Of a stretch of DNA of 25,434 nucleotides, positions 1,557 to 23,650 are shown in pieces. The translations under genes and the position numbers were made by a program. The notes under the pieces were generated by a model that was not told the origin of the DNA, searched no databases, and saw nothing but the letters and a program-made list of their open reading frames with translations. Each line of letters starts with the position of its first letter. Positions within the stretch are counted from its first letter, which is position 1. This DNA is from a virus: IMG/VR virus record IMGVR_UViG_3300032084_001527, positions 1 through 25,434 of that record; one strand, written 5' to 3'.

Positions 1557-2108
1557 TCAGGGCGCGCCGAAGAAGCCCCTGGTGAAACCGCTCATGGAGC
1601 GTATCCGGCTTCTGAATTCTGCCGGGATTCTCGGAAGCCGTTTCGCGTAGCGGTCAGCAGACTTCCACGGCATCACGTCGAAGAAGTGCGGGATCGGCGA
1701 CAGCGGGATGCCGCAGAGGACAGCGCGGTCATGTCCGAGATCCACCAGCGCGACCTTTGCGGCGTAGATGCCAGAGGTCATCGAGGCATCCTTGGACGCC
1801 TCATCGGTGCCGGGGAACAGCCAATCGGAAGTCGTTATATCAAGCCCGTCCTGGCTCCGCATCTTGGCGACGTCCTTGGGCGACGAAGCGATCAGCTTCG
1901 CCGCCGGAGAGAAGCCAGCCTGTTCCCGCGCTGCCAGCCAGCCCTTCGACAGCCAGTAGTAGGGGTGCAGCGTCACCCAGGCATCGAGATGGCGCGGCCA
2001 GATGGCTCCAGCGTCGTTGCAGGCGACCACAGCATCAATGGGCCCCGAATAGGCATCAAGGTCCTCTTGCAGGCATGCCGCGCCGCCCAGCACCAGCGCG
2101 GTGGTCAT
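1557..2108 (-). CDS. DUF115 / MptE-like domain protein
   Basis: A protein of 183 aa, starting MTTALVLGGAACLQ and overlapping the FkbM gene stop by ATGA. The N-terminal segment reads like a nucleotide-binding beta strand (TTALVLGGA), followed by DAVVACNDAGAIW and LDAWVTLHP. These phrases resemble DUF115 / 6-hydroxymethylpterin pyrophosphokinase MptE-like proteins, which often occur beside glycosyltransferases and flagellin-glycosylation genes. No membrane segment or signal peptide is seen. It is the third gene of a tightly overlapping cassette with a glycosyltransferase and an FkbM methyltransferase, so a part in glycan synthesis or virion decoration is inferred, not shown. The family call is from remembered motifs and is moderate. 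Confidence 0.5.
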   Translation of the reverse strand: MTTALVLGGAACLQEDLDAYSGPIDAVVACNDAGAIWPRHLDAWVTLHPYYWLSKGWLAAREQAGFSPAAKLIASSPKDVAKMRSQDGLDITTSDWLFPGTDEASKDASMTSGIYAAKVALVDLGHDRAVLCGIPLSPIPHFFDVMPWKSADRYAKRLPRIPAEFRSRIRSMSGFTRGFFGAP

Positions 2109-2716
2109 TCAGGCACCATGATCACGTCGCGGCGCGGGCGGTGCGCGACGCGATAGCCGAACGTCTCGACAATCCAGTCGACAGCTTCGCCCTTTCGCAC
2201 GCCATACTTCTCGGACAAGCCCTTGTCCTCGATCATGATGACCGGTCGATAGTCGCGGATCGTCGCCGCGGCCCCGCGCAGCGCAGGCAACTCGAAGCCT
2301 TCCACATCCAGCGCGAGGAGGTCGCAGGCAGGCAGGCGAAGGCTGTCAAGCGTGATGACTGGCACGTCCTCGCCCTGCGTCAGATAGTGGGCCCCGATGT
2401 TCGCGGGCTTCCGGGCCATGCCTGATCGCCCCTTCTTCTCACCCAGCGCCGCACCGCGATACCGCACGTTGCCCGGCACGTTCTGCTTGAGGCAGTGCAG
2501 GTTCACGGGGTCGGGTTCGAAGGTCCAGACGGTCCGGAACAATCCCGCAAGGTGGCGAGGCCAGACGCCGCAATTGCCGCCGGCCTGCACGGCCAGCGCA
2601 CGGCCAGCGCACAGAGAGACGGCGATATCAAGGTCACTCAGCGAGCTGAACACGACCGGATGGCACTCCCGATCAGATGCGGGCCATACGAGGCCCTGGC
2701 GGGTGGTCAGGTTCAT
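2105..2716 (-). CDS. FkbM-family methyltransferase
   Basis: A SAM-dependent methyltransferase of 203 aa. The start at 2716 (MNLTTRQGLV) overlaps the glycosyltransferase stop by ATGA; a longer reading to 2932 would lie inside that gene and is rejected. Visible family features are a glycine-containing motif I (AVQAGGNCGVWP, about residues 42-53), the FkbM signature FEPDP (66-70) followed by VNLHCLKQNV, and LDVEGFELPALRG (about 136-148). FkbM enzymes usually O-methylate sugars or other small hydroxylated groups. With the adjacent glycosyltransferase and DUF115-like protein it may methylate a sugar added to a virion or host glycan. The target is unknown. Confidence 0.85.
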   Translation of the reverse strand: MNLTTRQGLVWPASDRECHPVVFSSLSDLDIAVSLCAGRALAVQAGGNCGVWPRHLAGLFRTVWTFEPDPVNLHCLKQNVPGNVRYRGAALGEKKGRSGMARKPANIGAHYLTQGEDVPVITLDSLRLPACDLLALDVEGFELPALRGAAATIRDYRPVIMIEDKGLSEKYGVRKGEAVDWIVETFGYRVAHRPRRDVIMVPE

Positions 2717-3348
2717 GCGGCTCTCTCCCATGCATCCCGCGCCCAGCCGGGGCAGTCGGGCATCTTCCGGCGCCCGTGGAAGGACACCACCGACGCGCCC
2801 GGCGGCGGACCGGCCCGCGCATCCTTTTTCCAGCTGACCACCAGCCCAGGCGCGAACGGGCGAATTGGGACCGCGTTCGCGTGCATCACGTCCTCGATAA
2901 ACGCCTGATCCCCGATCCGGCCATCGGGCCACGCGTCGTAGCGCCGGGCGTATCCAGCGGCATCCTGGACGAAGCGCCGGTAAATCTCCGAGCGGTCACC
3001 ACCCCAGAACATGCACCCGCTGTTGAAACCCGGCCCGAGGAAGTCCTGCGTCATCCAGAATCCGCCGGCCGATACCAGAGGGTCCAGCGGGCCGACGATC
3101 AGGCTATCGAGATCAAGGTAGAGCACCCGGTCTTGGAACAACTCGCGCCGGAATAGCTCGATCTTGCTCCACCAGCGCGGCCAGGAATGCCGCAGGCCGA
3201 TGCGATCACAGGGCACATGCACGTCCGACAGGCAGATGAAGTGGTGCGGGATCGTGAGGTTGTCCTTGACCTGCCGTTGCAGCCGAGTGACCCATTCAGG
3301 CCGATAGATGCCGCCTGATCGCAGGACACAGGCCACCGTCAAATTCAC
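2713..3348 (-). CDS. GT-A fold glycosyltransferase (GT8-like)
   Basis: A protein of 211 aa. The GTG start at 3348 overlaps the preceding stop as GTGA and has an excellent GGAGG seven bases upstream, which decides it against the longer reading at 3363. The N-terminus (NLTVACVLRSGG) is a first beta strand, WWSKIELFR (about 59-67) is followed by VLYLDLDSLIVG with the metal-binding DxD motif (D79, D81), and the C-terminus has SFHGRRKMPD, a phrase common at the end of such enzymes. It should transfer a sugar from a nucleotide sugar to an unknown acceptor. It sits between the tail terminator and tail tube genes, an unusual place, suggesting glycosylation of a tail component or host surface glycan. 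Confidence 0.8.
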   Translation of the reverse strand: MNLTVACVLRSGGIYRPEWVTRLQRQVKDNLTIPHHFICLSDVHVPCDRIGLRHSWPRWWSKIELFRRELFQDRVLYLDLDSLIVGPLDPLVSAGGFWMTQDFLGPGFNSGCMFWGGDRSEIYRRFVQDAAGYARRYDAWPDGRIGDQAFIEDVMHANAVPIRPFAPGLVVSWKKDARAGPPPGASVVSFHGRRKMPDCPGWARDAWERAA

Positions 3349-3791
3349 CGTCTGCCCTCCCACACGATCCGCACGCCCTCGCGCCAGTCGTCTCCGTCTG
3401 GAAAACCCGGCACCGCGTGGACATTGCCAGTAATCTCGACCGTTCCGCCGCCGAATACCGGCAGCCGCAGCCCTTTCGGGAACACCGCGCGCACCCGGTC
3501 GATCAGCTGGCGCCCGGCCACCGCCCAGGAATCGACCTGCGAAACCGCGATGACCTGCAGGTAACCCTCGGCCGTGCCTCGCGTGCCGCCGCCCTTCATC
3601 GTCGGGTCGTCGCGCATGGCCTCGATGACCTCGACGTCGAGATACGGCTTCGATCCTGCCGGGATCGTCTCATAGGGCGTGCCGTTCGCATCGCGCGGGC
3701 GCCGGTTCTCCCAGACGATGAGCGGGCGCGGGTCGAGGGTGGCAAGGCGCTGCCCGAGGGCGTTGCTGATGCCGAGGGTGGAGAGGGTCAT
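3345..3791 (-). CDS. Tail terminator-like protein (DUF4128-like)
   Basis: A protein of 148 aa starting MTLSTLGISNALGQRLATLD, with the start at 3791 overlapping the HK97-gp10-like stop by ATGA. The pattern of an N-terminal helix, the strand PLIVWENRRP, YLDVEVIEA, a YLQVIAVSQVDSWAVAGRQLIDRV core and a final VRIVWEGRR strand matches the small alpha/beta tail-terminator fold (lambda gpU-like; DUF4128 proteins). Such proteins cap the tail tube and form the interface to the head. Position after the gp10-like gene agrees. The Pfam name is from recall, and the structural role is inferred mostly from order. Confidence 0.6.
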   Translation of the reverse strand: MTLSTLGISNALGQRLATLDPRPLIVWENRRPRDANGTPYETIPAGSKPYLDVEVIEAMRDDPTMKGGGTRGTAEGYLQVIAVSQVDSWAVAGRQLIDRVRAVFPKGLRLPVFGGGTVEITGNVHAVPGFPDGDDWREGVRIVWEGRR

Positions 3792-8126: not shown

Positions 8127-8696
8127 TCAGGCCTCCTTCTGTGCTGCACCGCGGTACGCGGTGGAAACATCAGCGACATGTTTCGCATAGGCCTGATCGG
8201 CCTCGTTGGCATCGCCGACGAGCTTCGGGCCGCCGTTCATCGCCTTGGCGAACGGGTCACCCTTCGCGGCATCCTCGGCCAGCACGTCGAAGCGGGCCTC
8301 GATGTAGGCGTCGGACTTTTCGGTCACGGCCTTGTCGCCCAGCTTCGCCTGCACCACCGCCTTGCGGATCGCGGCGTCGGACAGGCCTGCGGTCTTCACG
8401 TCCTTCGCGATGGCCGAGGCCTTGCCGATCAGTTCGGTCCGGTCGGCAACGCGCTTGTCGAGAGCGGCATCGTCAAGGATCTTCTCATTCGCGGCGTCGA
8501 GCTTGCCTTTCAGGGTCTCGATCTCGGCGTCCTTGGCGGCGATGGCCTTGTCGTGCGCCGCATCCTTCTGAGCGAGGGCGGTATCCTTGTCCGCGATGGT
8601 CTTGTTCAGTTTTTCGAGCGCCTGCGCGCCTGCGTCGGTCGTCTCGACGGAAAGGCCGTCGATCAGGACCGTGCGAGTTTTCACGGCGTCTGCCAT
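8127..8696 (-). CDS. Nested capsid scaffold from internal start
   Basis: Inside the protease gene an in-frame ATG at 8696 (MADAVKTRTVLIDGL) has a strong GAAAGGA about eight bases upstream. It lies exactly where the protease domain ends and the coiled-coil scaffold domain begins. The 189-aa product would be a free scaffold, like lambda Nu3 within gene C. This is an inference from the ribosome site and domain boundary. Confidence 0.55.
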   Translation of the reverse strand: MADAVKTRTVLIDGLSVETTDAGAQALEKLNKTIADKDTALAQKDAAHDKAIAAKDAEIETLKGKLDAANEKILDDAALDKRVADRTELIGKASAIAKDVKTAGLSDAAIRKAVVQAKLGDKAVTEKSDAYIEARFDVLAEDAAKGDPFAKAMNGGPKLVGDANEADQAYAKHVADVSTAYRGAAQKEA

Positions 8697-9287
8697 GTTC
8701 ACGTCCTTTCGGTCGATTGTGATGGGAGAAGCGCCCCACCGCGCCTGCGCATCGTCACCGATGCGAAGCTGCTCACCTCCCCGCGCACGGTCCACAAGCG
8801 CAAGATGGTTGATCCTGATGGGCCCGGTCTGGACCGCCTGATAGGCCGTTCCGTCTGGCGCCGTGCCGTCTTTCATCTCGATTGGCGTGGTATAGCCCAT
8901 GCTGATCTCGCGCAGTCCGTCCCGAACTGCCTTGATGGCGTCGGCATCCATGAGGGTCAGCGAGACACGGATGAAGTCGCCGTCCCGCGCCACCTCCTCG
9001 CCAACGTCGCCCACCGCATAACGGCGCCAATTGTCCGCCGTGACCGGCTCGTTCGGATGCCCAACCGTCACCGGCTTGTGGGCGAAGGTCGCCATGCTGG
9101 CCTTGTCGAAAACCGCCGCCTCTGGCCGATAGACCCGCACGATGCCGTCATCGGCAAGCCCGACCTCTGCTGCCAGATAGTCCTGGCACCCCGTCCGGGC
9201 GCAACGGACCGTAGCCACCAGATAGCCGTCCGCCGTCATGCGGGTGCCGACGATGGGCGCCGCGTCGGTGAAATGCTGGTCGGTCAT
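8127..9287 (-). CDS. DUF2213 prohead protease with scaffold domain
   Basis: A protein of 386 aa. The start at 9287 (MTDQHFTDAAPIVG) overlaps the portal stop by ATGA, with GGAAGA upstream; the longer reading at 9311 is rejected. Residues 1-185 form the DUF2213 domain with PVTVGHPNEPVT, REISMGYTTPIE and NHLALVDRARGG, which hold candidate Ser and His residues of a herpesvirus/HK97-type prohead protease. From about residue 198 the protein changes to a Lys/Asp/Ala-rich coiled coil (ALEKLNKTIADKDTALAQKD) and then a helical tail, as in scaffold proteins. The protease would mature the prohead and remove the scaffold. The catalytic residues are inferred from the family. Confidence 0.8.
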   Translation of the reverse strand: MTDQHFTDAAPIVGTRMTADGYLVATVRCARTGCQDYLAAEVGLADDGIVRVYRPEAAVFDKASMATFAHKPVTVGHPNEPVTADNWRRYAVGDVGEEVARDGDFIRVSLTLMDADAIKAVRDGLREISMGYTTPIEMKDGTAPDGTAYQAVQTGPIRINHLALVDRARGGEQLRIGDDAQARWGASPITIDRKDVNMADAVKTRTVLIDGLSVETTDAGAQALEKLNKTIADKDTALAQKDAAHDKAIAAKDAEIETLKGKLDAANEKILDDAALDKRVADRTELIGKASAIAKDVKTAGLSDAAIRKAVVQAKLGDKAVTEKSDAYIEARFDVLAEDAAKGDPFAKAMNGGPKLVGDANEADQAYAKHVADVSTAYRGAAQKEA

Positions 9288-11086
9288 TCTTCCTTGATCC
9301 CCTCCGCCCACCTCGGATTGACCTCCTCGAAGATTTCGGGGCCGAGGACGATCTTTCCGCGATACGGCTCGATGTCCCCGACAGCGGGGCTATCGGCGTC
9401 GTAGCTGATGGTGATGTGGGGCTGGTATTCCGGGTGATCCCACGACGCCCCTTCGCGCTTCATCTCCTCGTGCCGCCACGACAACTCGGACGATACGAAC
9501 AGAAGAACTTTGGCCTCGCCGAACCGATCCATGAGCCGCGCGCCGCCAGCAGGCACTTCGATCTCGTCAGTCCACGATTGCCCGACCTTCATCCAGTCCA
9601 CGGGCTGGCGCGAGAATGCGACAGTGACGTGCATGTCATCCACTGGAAGCGTGGTCTTGAAGCCCTGCGACTTCGCCCAAGCGATGATCTCTTCAGCGTT
9701 CAGAACGTCACGCCGGACATAGAGCGTGCGCGGCGCTGCATCCGCTGTCATCGGGTCAGCCGCAGGCGGCGGGTCGTTGTCATCGTCGCTGCCGAAATCC
9801 GCGCTGCCGAATTCCTCGAACGCCGATTCAAGGCCCGGAAATGCTCCGCACTCGGTGAGCACGTTGACGGCCGTGGTGGCGATGACCTCGGGCGCCAGCA
9901 CGTCCATTCCCATCAGCCGCTCCAGCGAGAGGGTCAGCTTGTCGGCGTTCTCCGCGACCTCTTTCGCGCTCTGCTGCCACAGCGGACGCCATGTGAAATG
10001 CAGCTCTTCCGGCCTGTTCCCGAGGGCGGAACGGATCAGGCACTCATCCAGCACCGACATGGCGGGTTCCATGTCAAGGGTCTGCTCCTGTCTGATGCGG
10101 TCGTAGTAGGTCCGCATGTCGCTCTCGCCGGTTGAATTCAGACCGGCTGGAGACATGGCGAATAGCCGCGTCATGGGGATGCGCGCCGCAGCCGATGCAA
10201 CCTGCATGAACCGGTCCATGATGTCGGGCAGATTCGAGAAATTGGCGCTCTTCTGGTCGTATTCCTCGGCCTCATCCATCAGCAGAGCGCCGTTGATGCC
10301 CTTCGACACGGCGGCCAGTCCGAACCGACGCAGCACCAGATTCTCGTATTCCTGCCCGCCCGTCTGCAGGTTCGACATGAAGTCCTTGATACGGATCACG
10401 TCGACCTTCGCCTCGAATACGAGGGCCGCGACGTTCGCCACCGTGGCGTCGAGATGTTTCACCTTCTCCAGCACGGCTGTCAGCACGCTGTCACCCCAGC
10501 CCTGGAACGATTGCCGCAGGCTGCTGTCCGGCGGGTCCTCGCCGCGGAAGATCGCCAGCCGTGATGGGTGGATGCGCACCGCCGTCCCGTCAAGCGGCTG
10601 CATCGTGTAGGAGACCGGAAATCCGAAACCGGGCAGGCGAGGATCAAGCTGCAGTTGATCCGGGGCAAGCTCGTTCATGTCGAGCGGCGTCAGGTACTGC
10701 AGCCCGCCGCGCCCGACGCGCCCGGGGTCAAGCGGGGCCTCCAGGTCGACGTCTCCCGTGCCGATGTAAATCGCCGAGCCGCCAAACAGCCTTGCACGGA
10801 TGCGTGCGTCCATGACGAGACGTTGCACCCCGAGCCGCTTTTCCTCGGCTTCCAGCTTGCTGATCTCGTTCGCCTCCGCCTGCCACGCACGCCACTCTCG
10901 ACAGCTGTCCTCTGCCGGCATGTCGATGATGTTCTTCGCGATGGCCGACGACCGATATGCCGCCAGCAGGTCGCCCCGGCTGAGGAAGTCGAGCGTGTAG
11001 CCGTTGGCAAACGACTTGTCGCGGGACGTTCCGAGGTTCGCCACGAGGTTCTGGAAGCCGTCTGTGACGCGCTGCATGATCGTCAT
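9284..11086 (-). CDS. Portal protein (DUF1073) fused to Acb1-like 2H phosphoesterase
   Basis: A protein of 600 aa; its ATG overlaps the terminase stop by ATGA. Residues 1 to about 425 are a DUF1073 portal: FANGYTLDFLSRGDLLAAYR, NIIDMPAEDSCREWRAW, ARLFGGSAIYIGTGD, FQGWGDSVLTAVLEKVK and TRLFAMSPAGLNSTGESD. The portal forms the dodecameric DNA channel at one capsid vertex. An acidic, Pro/Ala-rich linker (about 428-453, with GSDDDNDPPP) leads to a C-terminal domain with two HxT motifs, DMHVTVAF (H486, T488) and QPHITISY (H557, T559), 71 residues apart. That is the mark of 2H phosphoesterases. T4 Acb1, which cleaves CBASS cyclic nucleotides, has this fold and similar spacing. Portal function is secure; anti-CBASS activity is inferred. 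Confidence 0.88.
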   Translation of the reverse strand: MTIMQRVTDGFQNLVANLGTSRDKSFANGYTLDFLSRGDLLAAYRSSAIAKNIIDMPAEDSCREWRAWQAEANEISKLEAEEKRLGVQRLVMDARIRARLFGGSAIYIGTGDVDLEAPLDPGRVGRGGLQYLTPLDMNELAPDQLQLDPRLPGFGFPVSYTMQPLDGTAVRIHPSRLAIFRGEDPPDSSLRQSFQGWGDSVLTAVLEKVKHLDATVANVAALVFEAKVDVIRIKDFMSNLQTGGQEYENLVLRRFGLAAVSKGINGALLMDEAEEYDQKSANFSNLPDIMDRFMQVASAAARIPMTRLFAMSPAGLNSTGESDMRTYYDRIRQEQTLDMEPAMSVLDECLIRSALGNRPEELHFTWRPLWQQSAKEVAENADKLTLSLERLMGMDVLAPEVIATTAVNVLTECGAFPGLESAFEEFGSADFGSDDDNDPPPAADPMTADAAPRTLYVRRDVLNAEEIIAWAKSQGFKTTLPVDDMHVTVAFSRQPVDWMKVGQSWTDEIEVPAGGARLMDRFGEAKVLLFVSSELSWRHEEMKREGASWDHPEYQPHITISYDADSPAVGDIEPYRGKIVLGPEIFEEVNPRWAEGIKEE

Positions 11087-13357: not shown

Positions 13358-13951
13358 TCACGCAACATTCTGCTTTCGGACCCTGCCGACCGTACAATCG
13401 CCCTTCATGCCCGTGCCAATCATCTGCCACCAGACCCGCCCATTGCGGACATCCAGGACGTCGACAGACAAGCCATCCAGGGGACCACCCTCAAACACCG
13501 CCACATCACCTCGCTCGACCTGGTACATCTGCGCCATCATCTCGGCCTTCGCAGCAGCCATTTCCTCGGCTCTGGTCGGCAAACCCTGCACGGCGCGGAT
13601 CACGTCCGCAGGCAGGTCGATCGGCCGTGTGCCGTAGCAGAACACGCCGGTGATGATCCGCCGCGCCTTGAGTACGTCCCACTGCGGCAGATGCTGGAAC
13701 TTTGCGTAGACGATCTGCGTGACGGTCGGATGCTCGGTAACGATCTTCTTGCCTCGCTCGAAGCGCTCGCGCTCTTCCATCGGGCAGAAGGCGAACACGC
13801 CGTCAGCGCGCAGCATCGCGATCCGGGATTTCTCCGCACCCGGGGCGACGCGCAGCGCGTGCCATCTCGGCTTGTCCAGTCGGTCACCGACAATGCCGCG
13901 GGGCTTCTCCCACGACACAACGTCGCCAACCGCGATCTGATCATATTTCAT
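13358..13951 (-). CDS. NusG-like transcription factor (NGN + KOW)
   Basis: A protein of 197 aa from ATG 13951 (MKYDQIAVGD); ATG 13966 would add five residues, and neither start has a clear ribosome site. After a short leader, PRWHALRVAPGAEKSRIAML at residues 29-48 matches the start of a NusG N-terminal domain, continuing with VFAFCPMEE, a basic RERFERGKKIV, and ARRIITGVFCYGTRPIDLPA. A C-terminal KOW domain follows (about 146-172: ERGDVAVFEGGPLDGLSVDV). NusG-family proteins bind the RNA polymerase clamp and control pausing and termination. As the second gene after the control region, it probably acts as a processive antiterminator for the late operon. It has no RfaH-specific feature I can identify. 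Confidence 0.75.
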   Translation of the reverse strand: MKYDQIAVGDVVSWEKPRGIVGDRLDKPRWHALRVAPGAEKSRIAMLRADGVFAFCPMEERERFERGKKIVTEHPTVTQIVYAKFQHLPQWDVLKARRIITGVFCYGTRPIDLPADVIRAVQGLPTRAEEMAAAKAEMMAQMYQVERGDVAVFEGGPLDGLSVDVLDVRNGRVWWQMIGTGMKGDCTVGRVRKQNVA

Positions 13952-14030
13952 GGCATGGCCCCACATCGGGACCGCGCCGGGTTCTGGCAGGGAGAGGATA
14001 CTTCCGACGGGAGGCCGGGAGCAAGTAAAT

Positions 14031-20102: not shown

Positions 20103-21490
20103 GCGGCTGTTCCTTTCAGAAAGTCGGGAAGATCCACGGCAGGAGCGCGTCCATACTTGCGGCGCCCCCTTGCTCGCTGGGCGCCGGTCATGGCTTTCGT
20201 CATCGCGAACTTCATCCGATCATGATCGGCCGCTTTGCGCTGAACGTTGCGCCAGATGCCCTCCTCGGTCTCGGCAATGACTATGTGCGCGGTCACCTCT
20301 TCGGTTTGCCCGAAGCGCCAAGACCGGCGGATGGCCTGGTAGTATCGCTCGTATGAGTGCGATAGGCTGGCGAAGACCTGACAGTGGCAGTGCTGCAGGT
20401 TAAGTCCAAAACCGGCCAGCTTTGGTTTGGTCACAAGCACCGCCGCATGACCCGACGCGAAACTGTCAAGAGCGGCCTCCTTGGCGTCGATGGGCATGCT
20501 GCCCTTGACCTCCACCGCCCCCTTGATCGCCTCGGTCAGTGCCGCGCTTTCGTCGTCCCGCTCACACCACACGATGACGTAGCCGCGATGTTCGCTCGCG
20601 ATATCGGTGGCTCGGGTGACACGCTCAAGAAAAGTCCGCTGCTTCTCGGCATGCATGTCCGTGGCGGACCCGCTCGGAACGCGGAACAGCGCATCCCCGG
20701 CACCGTCCAGCAGATCGACGCCACAGACATGCAACTCGGTTTTGAGGGGCGGAAGGATGAAGCCGGTATCGTCTCCACCAAGGTCGGACGGCATGCTGGC
20801 CGCCCGCGCCCAAGATGCCACCCACGACCAGAAATCCTCAACAGCATGCCCTTTGAGCCGCCAATTCTGGGACGCCGTGGTGGTGTCGTTGATGAACCAG
20901 CGGCACAGCATTTCCATGCTGCCCATCACCCCAAGAAATTCGGCGTGCTGACCGATCTCCATGTGATCGTTTGGCGCCGGCGTCGCGGTCGCTGCGAGGC
21001 GGTAGGGGGTGCCTCTGAATGCCTCGACCAGCGCACGCTTGGTGCTTCCGGTGAAGCTCTTGAGGATGCTGCTTTCATCCAGCACCACCGCTCCGAACCG
21101 CGACACGTCCAGCTTGCCGAGGCGTTCGTAGTTCGCGATCACGACCCCCGGCGCGCCATGCATGTCCGCGTCCTCGCGGATCACGGCTGCGTCGACGCCA
21201 AAGGCCTCGCACTCGCGCTGCATCTGCCTGGCCACCGCCAGAGGGGTCAGGATCAGGGAGGGCTTGCGGGTCTCGATGGCACACTCGTCAGCGAATACAG
21301 CCTCGCACCCACTCTTTCCGAGGCCGGTATCGAGGAACAGGGCCGCCCTGCCCTTATCCAGAGCGAATTCCACGGCGGTTCTCTGGTGTGAAAAAAGACG
21401 CGACGGCAGGGTTTCAGGCCGGAAGCCGGACGACTGCGCTGCCGTGCCCTTCCCGGCGATGAAATCCAGATACGCCTTGCGGTCAAACAT
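20099..21490 (-). CDS. SNF2-like helicase
   Basis: A protein of 463 aa, with GGAG seven bases before ATG 21490. Motifs: SRLFSHQRTAVEFAL (Q-motif region), Walker A LDTGLGKS (53-60), Walker B VVLDESS (135-141), AATATPAPND, then in the second RecA domain VTKPKLAGFGLNLQ and motif VI QAIRRSWRFGQ (385-395). These are SNF2-family features, compact and without chromatin domains, as in many phages. It likely moves along double-stranded DNA during replication or recombination. Its start overlaps the clamp gene end by eight bases and its stop overlaps the methyltransferase start by ATGA. Confidence 0.87.
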   Translation of the reverse strand: MFDRKAYLDFIAGKGTAAQSSGFRPETLPSRLFSHQRTAVEFALDKGRAALFLDTGLGKSGCEAVFADECAIETRKPSLILTPLAVARQMQRECEAFGVDAAVIREDADMHGAPGVVIANYERLGKLDVSRFGAVVLDESSILKSFTGSTKRALVEAFRGTPYRLAATATPAPNDHMEIGQHAEFLGVMGSMEMLCRWFINDTTTASQNWRLKGHAVEDFWSWVASWARAASMPSDLGGDDTGFILPPLKTELHVCGVDLLDGAGDALFRVPSGSATDMHAEKQRTFLERVTRATDIASEHRGYVIVWCERDDESAALTEAIKGAVEVKGSMPIDAKEAALDSFASGHAAVLVTKPKLAGFGLNLQHCHCQVFASLSHSYERYYQAIRRSWRFGQTEEVTAHIVIAETEEGIWRNVQRKAADHDRMKFAMTKAMTGAQRARGRRKYGRAPAVDLPDFLKGTAA

Positions 21491-22634
21491 CGGCCAGCTC
21501 CGCCTCGGACGCGCGCAGCGCCATGATCATCGCCGACATCGAAAGCGTGTTGCTTTCCTGCGCGGGCTTGATGCTGATCACCGATGCGCCGTCAGCGCGG
21601 GCATCGACCAGCAGGCAGATTTCTTCTCCTTGCATCCCGGCGACAGCCCCGGTCAGGTACTTGCTGCTGATTGCTCCGGTGAAGGGTGCGCGACCGGTTG
21701 CCTCCATTTCGGCGCGCCCGGCATGAACGACACCGCCGATGGCGCGCTGCCCCCGCATCACGACCGGCTCACCCTCGGCCACCCGCAGGATCAGATTCCG
21801 AGCGCGATCGCTGCCTGCATCCGCACCGCAGGTCGCCACCGTAATGGCTGCCGTGTAGTCATCCCGCCCGGCGATGCAGGCTTCGCGCCATTCGGTGAAC
21901 TGGTCGACCATTCTGCGGACATTGGGAAACGATCCATCGACCACCTTTCCCCACATGCGGCGGGCGCCACAGGCTGCAAACCAGCCGCGCGCGGATATCG
22001 AGAACGAGACCTGCTCTGCCTTTTCCGCCACGGCCAGAACAATCTGCGCGGCGTCGATAGGCAACGTGCCGCCGCCCCCGACAGAGGCCACGCCCCGCAT
22101 AGATGCGAGATGCATGCTCTTGCTGTCCGTCCCGAACATGTCGACGTTGCCGTCATGCTCGCTGAAGTGCACGCCGGCCATATGCCAACGAGCCTCGTCG
22201 TCAGTCACGGCAGATGCGCAGAACCGCAGGGCCGCGCGAAACACCTCGCCATCGAGCGATACCGGCTCGCCCTCGGGCGGGCGCGAATTCGGGAAGTCCT
22301 CAACGGAAACGGCGCTCAGCGTGATCCGGCTGCGACCGGAGCTTACCTTGGCCCGGTCACCCTCGACCTCGATCCTGACCTGACCTGCTTTGGCGGCGCG
22401 AACGAAGGTGACCAGCGGTGCGAATGGTAGCGCACAAGCGCCCTCGGTGCCCACCTCGGCCGATACGTCTATCTCGGACGTGCTGTCGTGATCGGAGACG
22501 ATCAGGGTGGCGCGGTTGTCGTTGCTGACAATCTTCACGTTGGACAGGATCGGCCAGACCGGCTTAGCGGGGACGACGCGCCCGGCCAAAGTCAGAGCTG
22601 CGACGAGTTCCTTGGTGTCGATGGAGAGGATCAT
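21483..22634 (-). CDS. DNA polymerase III beta-like sliding clamp
   Basis: A protein of 383 aa, close to the usual 366 of DnaN. The start at 22634 (MILSIDTKELVAALTLAGRV) overlaps the upstream stop by ATGA; a longer reading to 23108 crosses two other genes and is rejected. Family features: VPAKPVWPILSNVKIVSNDN, LIVSDHDSTSEIDV, FAPLVTFVRAA, ITLSAVSVEDFPNSRP, RWHMAGVHFSEHDGNVDMFG with TDSKSMHL, and GSFPNVRRMVDQF. The C-terminus MSAMIMALRASEAELADV replaces the usual MPMRL end. Clamps tether polymerases and other enzymes to DNA. A phage-coded homologue could replace the host clamp or work with PrimPol and the exonuclease here. Confidence 0.85.
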   Translation of the reverse strand: MILSIDTKELVAALTLAGRVVPAKPVWPILSNVKIVSNDNRATLIVSDHDSTSEIDVSAEVGTEGACALPFAPLVTFVRAAKAGQVRIEVEGDRAKVSSGRSRITLSAVSVEDFPNSRPPEGEPVSLDGEVFRAALRFCASAVTDDEARWHMAGVHFSEHDGNVDMFGTDSKSMHLASMRGVASVGGGGTLPIDAAQIVLAVAEKAEQVSFSISARGWFAACGARRMWGKVVDGSFPNVRRMVDQFTEWREACIAGRDDYTAAITVATCGADAGSDRARNLILRVAEGEPVVMRGQRAIGGVVHAGRAEMEATGRAPFTGAISSKYLTGAVAGMQGEEICLLVDARADGASVISIKPAQESNTLSMSAMIMALRASEAELADV

Positions 22635-22900
22635 TCCGCCGCCCTCACTTTGGGCTGATCGTGGATCTTCACGAGCCGTGGTGCACAGCCATTCTTCTCT
22701 TCGATCTCGGCCGCGCCGGGTTCGTATTCGGACCAGCGGACCTTGGGCGCGGACGTGGCCCCGCCGATGGAAAGGCGGACATAGCCACTTCCGAACCGCG
22801 CGTAGATCGCATCCTTGCGGGCGTAAAGCGGTGCCTGCCGATAGACGCCGCCGCTGTGGACGATGACCTGGCCTTCGGGAATTTCGGTGAAGTAGTTCAT
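22631..22900 (-). CDS. Hypothetical 89-aa protein
   Basis: A soluble protein starting MNYFTEIPEGQVIVHSGGVY, with QAPLYARKDAIYARFGSGYV and RLSIGGATSAPKVRWSEYEP. It looks like a small beta-barrel with a basic patch. GAGG lies about nine bases before its ATG. It sits between the exonuclease and the sliding clamp and overlaps the clamp start by ATGA, so it is co-translated with replication genes. No family is recognised. Confidence 0.65.
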   Translation of the reverse strand: MNYFTEIPEGQVIVHSGGVYRQAPLYARKDAIYARFGSGYVRLSIGGATSAPKVRWSEYEPGAAEIEEKNGCAPRLVKIHDQPKVRAAE

Positions 22901-22903
22901 GAT

Positions 22904-23650
22904 TCAGAACCTCGCTTGCAGGAATTTCTGATGAAGCGCGCGGGTCCGCCGCACATCGTCGTCGCAGTATTGAGCGATGGTCAGGTGCTGGCCCGAGGTC
23001 CACGCTTCGGCCACCATCGAGCCGTCGAAGCCGGCCTTGCCCACGATCCCGAAGATCCCGCACAGGCGGTTCATGCTGATCATGTCGCCACGACCTGACC
23101 CGGCCCACGCGTTCATTGTGTCGAAGACGCCGGGCGCCCAGGGCTTCGGATCGCGCGGGAACGTGCTGGACGGCGGCAGGTCGATGCCAAGCACCACCGC
23201 ACGTTTGAGCAGGAACGGGATGTCGAAGCCGACGATGTTGTGCCCGACCAACACGGACCCCGACAGCGGCAAGGCGTCGAAGAAGGCCGCGATTATGTCC
23301 CGCTCCTCTGTCACGCCCTCGGCATGCTCAACCCGGACATCGCCGTCGTTGATCGCCCAGCCGATGGTGCAGACATGCCCGGCTCCGGGATCGAAGCTGG
23401 TTTTTGCCCAGACATCGTGAGCCGCGCTTTCGCGGTTTTCCGCATACCAGAGGTCGATGCTGTCCGGCTTCTTGAGGTTCGCCGGGTGCTTGACGTTCTC
23501 GCGTGCCCGTTCAAGCGCACCATCGCGCTGGTCGGGAATCGTCTCGATGTCGAAATAGACGAAATCGCCCATCTCGTAGGCCGCGGCGACGTTCGGATGC
23601 AGTTCTGCAACAAAGGCTTCCGGCTCAACCGGTTTCGGAAGGGCAACCAT
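22904..23650 (-). CDS. PolB-like DEDDy 3'-5' exonuclease
   Basis: A protein of 248 aa from ATG 23650, which overlaps the preceding stop as TGATG; GTG 23653 is an alternative. The three exonuclease motifs are visible: YFDIETIP (Exo I, D34, E36), VGHNIVGFDIPFLLKR (Exo II, D143) and YCDDDVRRT (Exo III, from residue 228). The tyrosine before CDDD puts it in the DEDDy group, like the stand-alone 'predicted 3'-5' exonuclease related to PolB' family. It would trim 3' ends in replication or recombination. Other segments include CTIGWAINDGDV and SRFPRD-like text around PPSSTFPRDPKPW. It has no polymerase domain. Confidence 0.87.
   Translation of the reverse strand: MVALPKPVEPEAFVAELHPNVAAAYEMGDFVYFDIETIPDQRDGALERARENVKHPANLKKPDSIDLWYAENRESAAHDVWAKTSFDPGAGHVCTIGWAINDGDVRVEHAEGVTEERDIIAAFFDALPLSGSVLVGHNIVGFDIPFLLKRAVVLGIDLPPSSTFPRDPKPWAPGVFDTMNAWAGSGRGDMISMNRLCGIFGIVGKAGFDGSMVAEAWTSGQHLTIAQYCDDDVRRTRALHQKFLQARF

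Follow-up and report, generated by a model that had tools for sequence, protein, structure and literature searches.

The window, by which we mean the whole 25,434-nucleotide stretch analyzed (IMG/VR virus record IMGVR_UViG_3300032084_001527), carries on its minus strand the genes for TerS, TerL, portal, DUF2213, a small head protein, and the major capsid protein, in the order expected of a portal gene. The 600-aa product of the portal gene consists of a Phage_portal_3 domain, an acidic linker, and a C-terminal domain assigned to the Acb1 family of 2H phosphoesterases (Table 1). Its ATG start overlaps the TerL stop, and the ATG of the DUF2213 gene overlaps the portal stop, in both cases as ATGA. 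No close phage was found among deposited genomes for this virus record, and the window gave no matches in Rfam, tRNA, or PADLOC scans. Elsewhere on the minus strand, the window encodes a protein resembling the DNA polymerase III beta clamp, its N terminus extended by about 158 residues (21483–23108), a protein with a NusG-like domain upstream of TerS (13358–13966), and, within the structural gene block, an FkbM-type methyltransferase with an adjoining ORF without a Pfam match (2105–3363).

Table 1. Features of the portal locus and its downstream neighbor, in window coordinates
Feature	Position	Strand	Evidence
Portal–Acb1 fusion ORF, 600 aa	9284..11086	-	
Phage_portal_3 domain (PF06381, formerly DUF1073), residues 40–385	9932..10969	-	Pfam E = 4e-100; fold match to 8hds
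Acidic linker, residues 424–448 (EEFGSADFGSDDDNDPPPAADPMTA); position given for the disordered part, residues 430–448	9743..9799	-	pLDDT <50
Conserved edge motif D-A-A-P-R-T-L-Y, residues 449–456, start of exchangeable cassette	9719..9742	-	
Acb1 2H phosphoesterase domain (PF23474), residues 453–595	9302..9730	-	Pfam E = 1.6e-42; fold match to 7t26
First HxT, H486-V487-T488 (= T4 Acb1 H44/T46)	9623..9631	-	Alignment of relatives
Second HxT, H557-I558-T559 (= T4 Acb1 H113/T115)	9410..9418	-	Alignment of relatives
Downstream gene, DUF2213 head maturation protease and scaffold	8127..9287	-	PF09979 E = 8e-53; PHROG 530 head maturation protease
Nested in-frame scaffold gene, 189 aa, inside the DUF2213 gene	8127..8696	-	

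At the sequence level, the presence of portal and Acb1 matches on one ORF is far beyond chance. In the Pfam profile search, Phage_portal_3 scored 335.4 bits (cut-off 33.8) and Acb1 145.1 bits (curated cut-off 27); the E-value of the latter is by itself not independent proof, because PF23474 may be built partly from portal C termini. Searched with phmmer against solved chains, the protein matched residues 464–619 of the Pam3 portal (E = 4e-40) and the FBB1 Acb1 (7t26, E = 2e-11). The AlphaFold model of the domain, computed from 45 relatives, reached a pLDDT of 90.7, and its top solved match in Foldseek was again FBB1 Acb1 (E = 1.1e-8, TM 0.75 by target length), followed by phosphodiesterases of Burkholderia phage BCSR5 and, more weakly, by Escherichia coli LigT (E = 3.9e-5, TM about 0.53). 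For the portal model, the best solved fold match was the Pam3 portal 8hds (E = 3.3e-29). The LigT profile PF02834 matched a stretch of just 26–29 residues (25.5 vs. 23.3 bits, E = 1.5e-5), and the equivalog cut-off of TIGR02258, the LigT/RNA 2′,3′-cyclic phosphodiesterase profile, was missed (13.9 vs. 65.7 bits). The original prediction had placed an Acb1-like 2H fold at 9284–9727 (residues 454–600), as an extra domain after an acidic linker behind a DUF1073 portal: the span fits the Acb1 domain, the order of the parts is borne out, and the structure prediction and the Pfam match agree on the fold. Its statement that the DUF1073 entry is now named after Acb1 was imprecise, as PF06381 is Phage_portal_3 and Acb1 the separate entry PF23474 in the Pfam copy used. 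With the domain as query, tblastn matched 1,221 phage records, and a class-wide genome search gave 2 of 289 genomes above the cut-off, indicating that the domain is rare in cellular genomes.

We scored residue conservation over 108 domains aligned with T4 gp57B. The two HxT motifs first read at H486/T488 and H557/T559 were confirmed in the ORF, with the catalytic histidines 71 residues apart in comparison with 69 in T4 Acb1 (H44, H113). The predicted HxT/HxT tetrad is essentially invariant in these relatives: both histidines are found in 108/108, T488 in 107/108, and T559 as T or S in 107/108. Y456, equivalent to T4 Y12, is kept in 106/108 and the lid tryptophan W593 (T4 W147) in 91/108, whereas the position of T4 E141, an adenine contact, has E in just 60/108. 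The position of T4 W74 is D/E and that of F107 mostly H among the aligned relatives; the window domain itself has equivalents of Y12, E141, and W147, an H for F107, and a D aligned to W74. Y12, W74, F107, and W147 stack on bases in T4 and FBB1, and because W74 and mostly F107 are not kept, the substrate range may differ. The domain thus resembles the T4 and FBB1 enzymes (7t26/7t27) in its 2H fold, tetrad, Y12 and lid W147 equivalents, and size, but differs from the free-standing T4 Acb1 in being the C-terminal part of a portal, in the W74 and F107 positions, and in the variable E141. Our reading is that it is probably an active Acb1-family enzyme, the pocket of which may have drifted. The domain is under purifying selection: its median dN/dS is 0.15, lower than the values of the portal (0.24) and the linker (0.23), all computed from 45 pairs that have no locus in common, some of them near-copies of one another.

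The portal–Acb1 architecture is not new and is in fact ordinary. Fusions of 2H domains to portal and MuF proteins, the same kind of architecture, were described in 2017 by Iyer et al., in a paper that predates Acb1 and proposes RNase activity or the degradation of defense nucleotides (PMC5512222). The PHROG 146 profile (587 positions), labeled as portal only, covers both the portal and the Acb1 part, and the fusion is therefore common in the family. Its carriers include phages of Rhizobium, Pseudomonas, Synechococcus, Aminobacter, and Pseudanabaena, the hosts, where known, being mostly Alphaproteobacteria. Cyanophage Pam3 (8hds, ON014755) has the same two-domain protein and the same TerS–TerL–portal order, but its Acb1 part is only about 42% identical and its portal and scaffold genes are separated by a minor capsid gene. 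What is new here is that the domain is, by sequence comparison, a swappable cassette that has repeatedly been attached to head-building proteins; for the gain and loss history, the cassette borders, and the protease fusions, we found no earlier description in the literature searched.

A single-sequence query with the portal alone retrieved nothing in viral contigs, and an alignment query was used instead. Among 80 viral loci picked by portal similarity alone, including many near-copies, 16 were fused, 60 unfused, and 4 cut off, and the Acb1 domain is thus absent from 60 of 76 classifiable relatives. The nearest portal to that of the window (L105, 65% identical) is not fused. On the portal tree, a quick tree with SH-aLRT supports, we counted 15 changes between the fused and unfused states; branches with strong support force no fewer than 11 of these. 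The portals of L010 and L183 are near-identical up to the acidic linker, after which the cassette is missing from L183. For L017 and L020 the pattern is the opposite, with portals 40% identical and Acb1 parts 95% identical, while the within-gene DNA similarity of L214 and L229 spans 447 bp, exactly the domain, and begins at the ANDAAPRTLYV edge. The portal tree and the 40%/95% identity pairs rule out a single origin of the portal_3–Acb1 fusion followed by vertical descent. The linker varies from 58 to 144 aa in relatives; against this variable background, the D and the A of the edge motif are each conserved in 102/108. In 16 records with unfused portals no Acb1 was found elsewhere in the record, although the records may be fragments; the search used recovered 4/4 known carriers. 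The domain also stands behind PF04860 portals (L079, L080, and L273) and N-terminal to a DUF2213 protease (L062) and an XkdF-type protease (L078), with counts of fused loci not being frequencies, as the sample was gathered largely by Acb1 similarity.

Annotation of these proteins is uneven. PHROG 755 labels the family of the domain RNA ligase, as does the public record for the Acb1-like T4 gene 57B. Gene 57B lies beside ipI, and this position identifies it as the T4 gene demonstrated to be acb1 (PMC9117128). For the Acb1-like genes at L263, L265, and L266, the public annotation reads RNA ligase (T4 57B) or prohead protease (DSS3P8 gp129 and ZHS_4). Neither of the prohead protease fusions suggested by the latter annotations was retained: gp129 of Roseobacter phage DSS3P8 is a stand-alone Acb1-like protein of 150 aa, and its protease label therefore looks wrong, while ZHS_4 of Edwardsiella phage ZHS (199 aa) adjoins portal genes and is not portal-fused. 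A putative antidefense domain can thus go unnoticed in proteins labeled simply as portal, RNA ligase, or prohead protease.

T4 Acb1 and nine relatives cleave 3′3′-cGAMP and cAAA, and the T4 activity appears at a time matching the late onset of CBASS (PMC9117128). We consider it most likely that the fused domain is a phosphodiesterase of cyclic oligonucleotides, made late and held on the procapsid, with an anti-CBASS or similar function; the original prediction had called an anti-CBASS role possible, and we infer it as the best account of the sequences and models. In this account the portal carries an Acb1-family 2H phosphoesterase domain behind a flexible acidic linker, as a mobile accessory cassette dispensable for portal function, and metal-independent HxT/HxT catalysis would probably act on cyclic di- or trinucleotide immune signals of CBASS or a similar system. 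Being part of the portal, the enzyme would be made late, in step with head assembly. Up to twelve copies per portal ring would face the head interior, with probably more on unassembled portal, and the most likely time and place of action would be head assembly in the producing cell, which is when CBASS responses begin. Of this account, the analysis shows the fusion, the fold, the catalytic residues, the purifying selection, the mobility of the cassette, and the lack of a conserved internal start, while the catalysis, its substrate, and its timing and location are inferred. Against it stand the pocket differences at E141, W74, and F107 and the inability of copies tethered inside a sealed head to reach cytosolic signals, and the domain could instead be an RNA-end or RNA phosphoesterase.

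RNA processing is a common role of 2H enzymes. An RNase or 2′,3′-cyclic phosphodiesterase that processes RNA ends and not immune signals is among the options proposed for portal- and MuF-fused 2H domains (PMC5512222) and would suit the RNA ligase label of PHROG 755 and the LigT Pfam match; we nevertheless find it unlikely here, as both sequence and fold place the domain much nearer to Acb1 than to LigT, Y12 and the lid W147 of Acb1 are retained, and the label is an annotation that T4 57B, by its position the acb1 gene (PMC9117128), also carries. Attachment to a structural protein could also mean that the domain is an inert scaffold or binding module decorating the portal vertex. Such a role is very improbable for a domain with an essentially invariant tetrad that is under tighter constraint than the portal, is missing from close relatives, and has been transferred between divergent portals. 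Equally improbable is that a free Acb1 is made from an internal start within the portal gene. An in-frame ATG (M446) lies just upstream of the domain, and the neighboring DUF2213 gene uses this device for its scaffold, but M446 has no Shine–Dalgarno sequence, and a start with a Shine–Dalgarno near the domain is found in 15 of 100 relatives, in comparison with a background of 15.6%. In the adjoining gene the nested scaffold gave a strong positive control: across 101 dereplicated relatives its internal Met (ATG 8696–8694) never changes, being present in 100 and falling in a gap in one, and a Shine–Dalgarno of at least four bases precedes it in 100/100, in comparison with 13% of other in-frame ATGs. 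We rejected the internal Acb1 start on this lack of enrichment; the nested scaffold start resembles the lambda C/Nu3 arrangement.

The place of the domain in the virion bears on where it would act. In the homologous E217 portal, of which residues 97–528 of 765 were built, the barrel at the C terminus projects into the head (PMC10329688). The Pam3 portal chain 8hds has 442 modeled residues in comparison with 621 in the sequence and was matched by our full-length model but not by the Acb1 model alone; the Acb1 domain is therefore most likely not modeled in 8hds, and its probable absence from the Pam3 virion model suggests a flexible tether or cleavage. These structural features would fit a virion-delivered enzyme: the head would take it in, the head protease would release it by cutting at the conserved NDAA/PRTLY edge, or release would come about in some other way, and it would enter the next host together with the DNA and clear signals there. 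The near-invariance of the D-A edge motif amid a variable linker would fit as well, as would the injection thought to occur for other MuF- and portal-fused enzymes (PMC5512222) and the fusion of an ADP-ribosyltransferase to portal–Acb1 at two loci. We regard such delivery as doubtful: an unmodeled domain on a floppy linker may just be flexible, the edge motif is also the cassette border and may be inherited with the module, and CBASS signals appear at a late stage of infection, at which few injected copies would be present. For the procapsid-tethered enzyme that we prefer, a tentative extension is that one Acb1 cassette has repeatedly been plugged into procapsid-nucleating proteins, at the C terminus of two portal families and the N terminus of two kinds of head protease, and that the enzyme may thereby be made and placed at the very time and site at which head assembly sets off CBASS. 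Tethering to the portal or head protease would time the enzyme with the trigger, and the Bas13 head protease is reported to contact a CBASS sensor (PMC12409349). Activity of the fused domain would mean that many phages carry an anti-CBASS enzyme within the portal, a structural protein that they cannot lose, and would make the question of assembly-coupled evasion versus virion delivery directly testable.

As we compared the fused loci, we observed further variation around the domain. The portal–Acb1–ADP-ribosyltransferase (ADPrib_exo_Tox) triple fusions are each encoded in one ORF (L046:163-2745 and L069:1570-4509), and long extensions without a Pfam match flank the Acb1 domain in L063:1072-4530 (residues 796–1153) and L081:427-3918 (residues 1–858). 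Extra genes are often found at the portal/DUF2213 junction of fused loci (e.g., L014, L021, L031, L052, L071, and L074), where the gap has a median of 377 nt and reaches 2,685 nt, in comparison with mostly about 33 nt in unfused loci. The junction is possibly a hot spot for cargo, the commonest insert being a family of ∼260–275 aa that matches in size the minor capsid protein encoded at the same place in Pam3.
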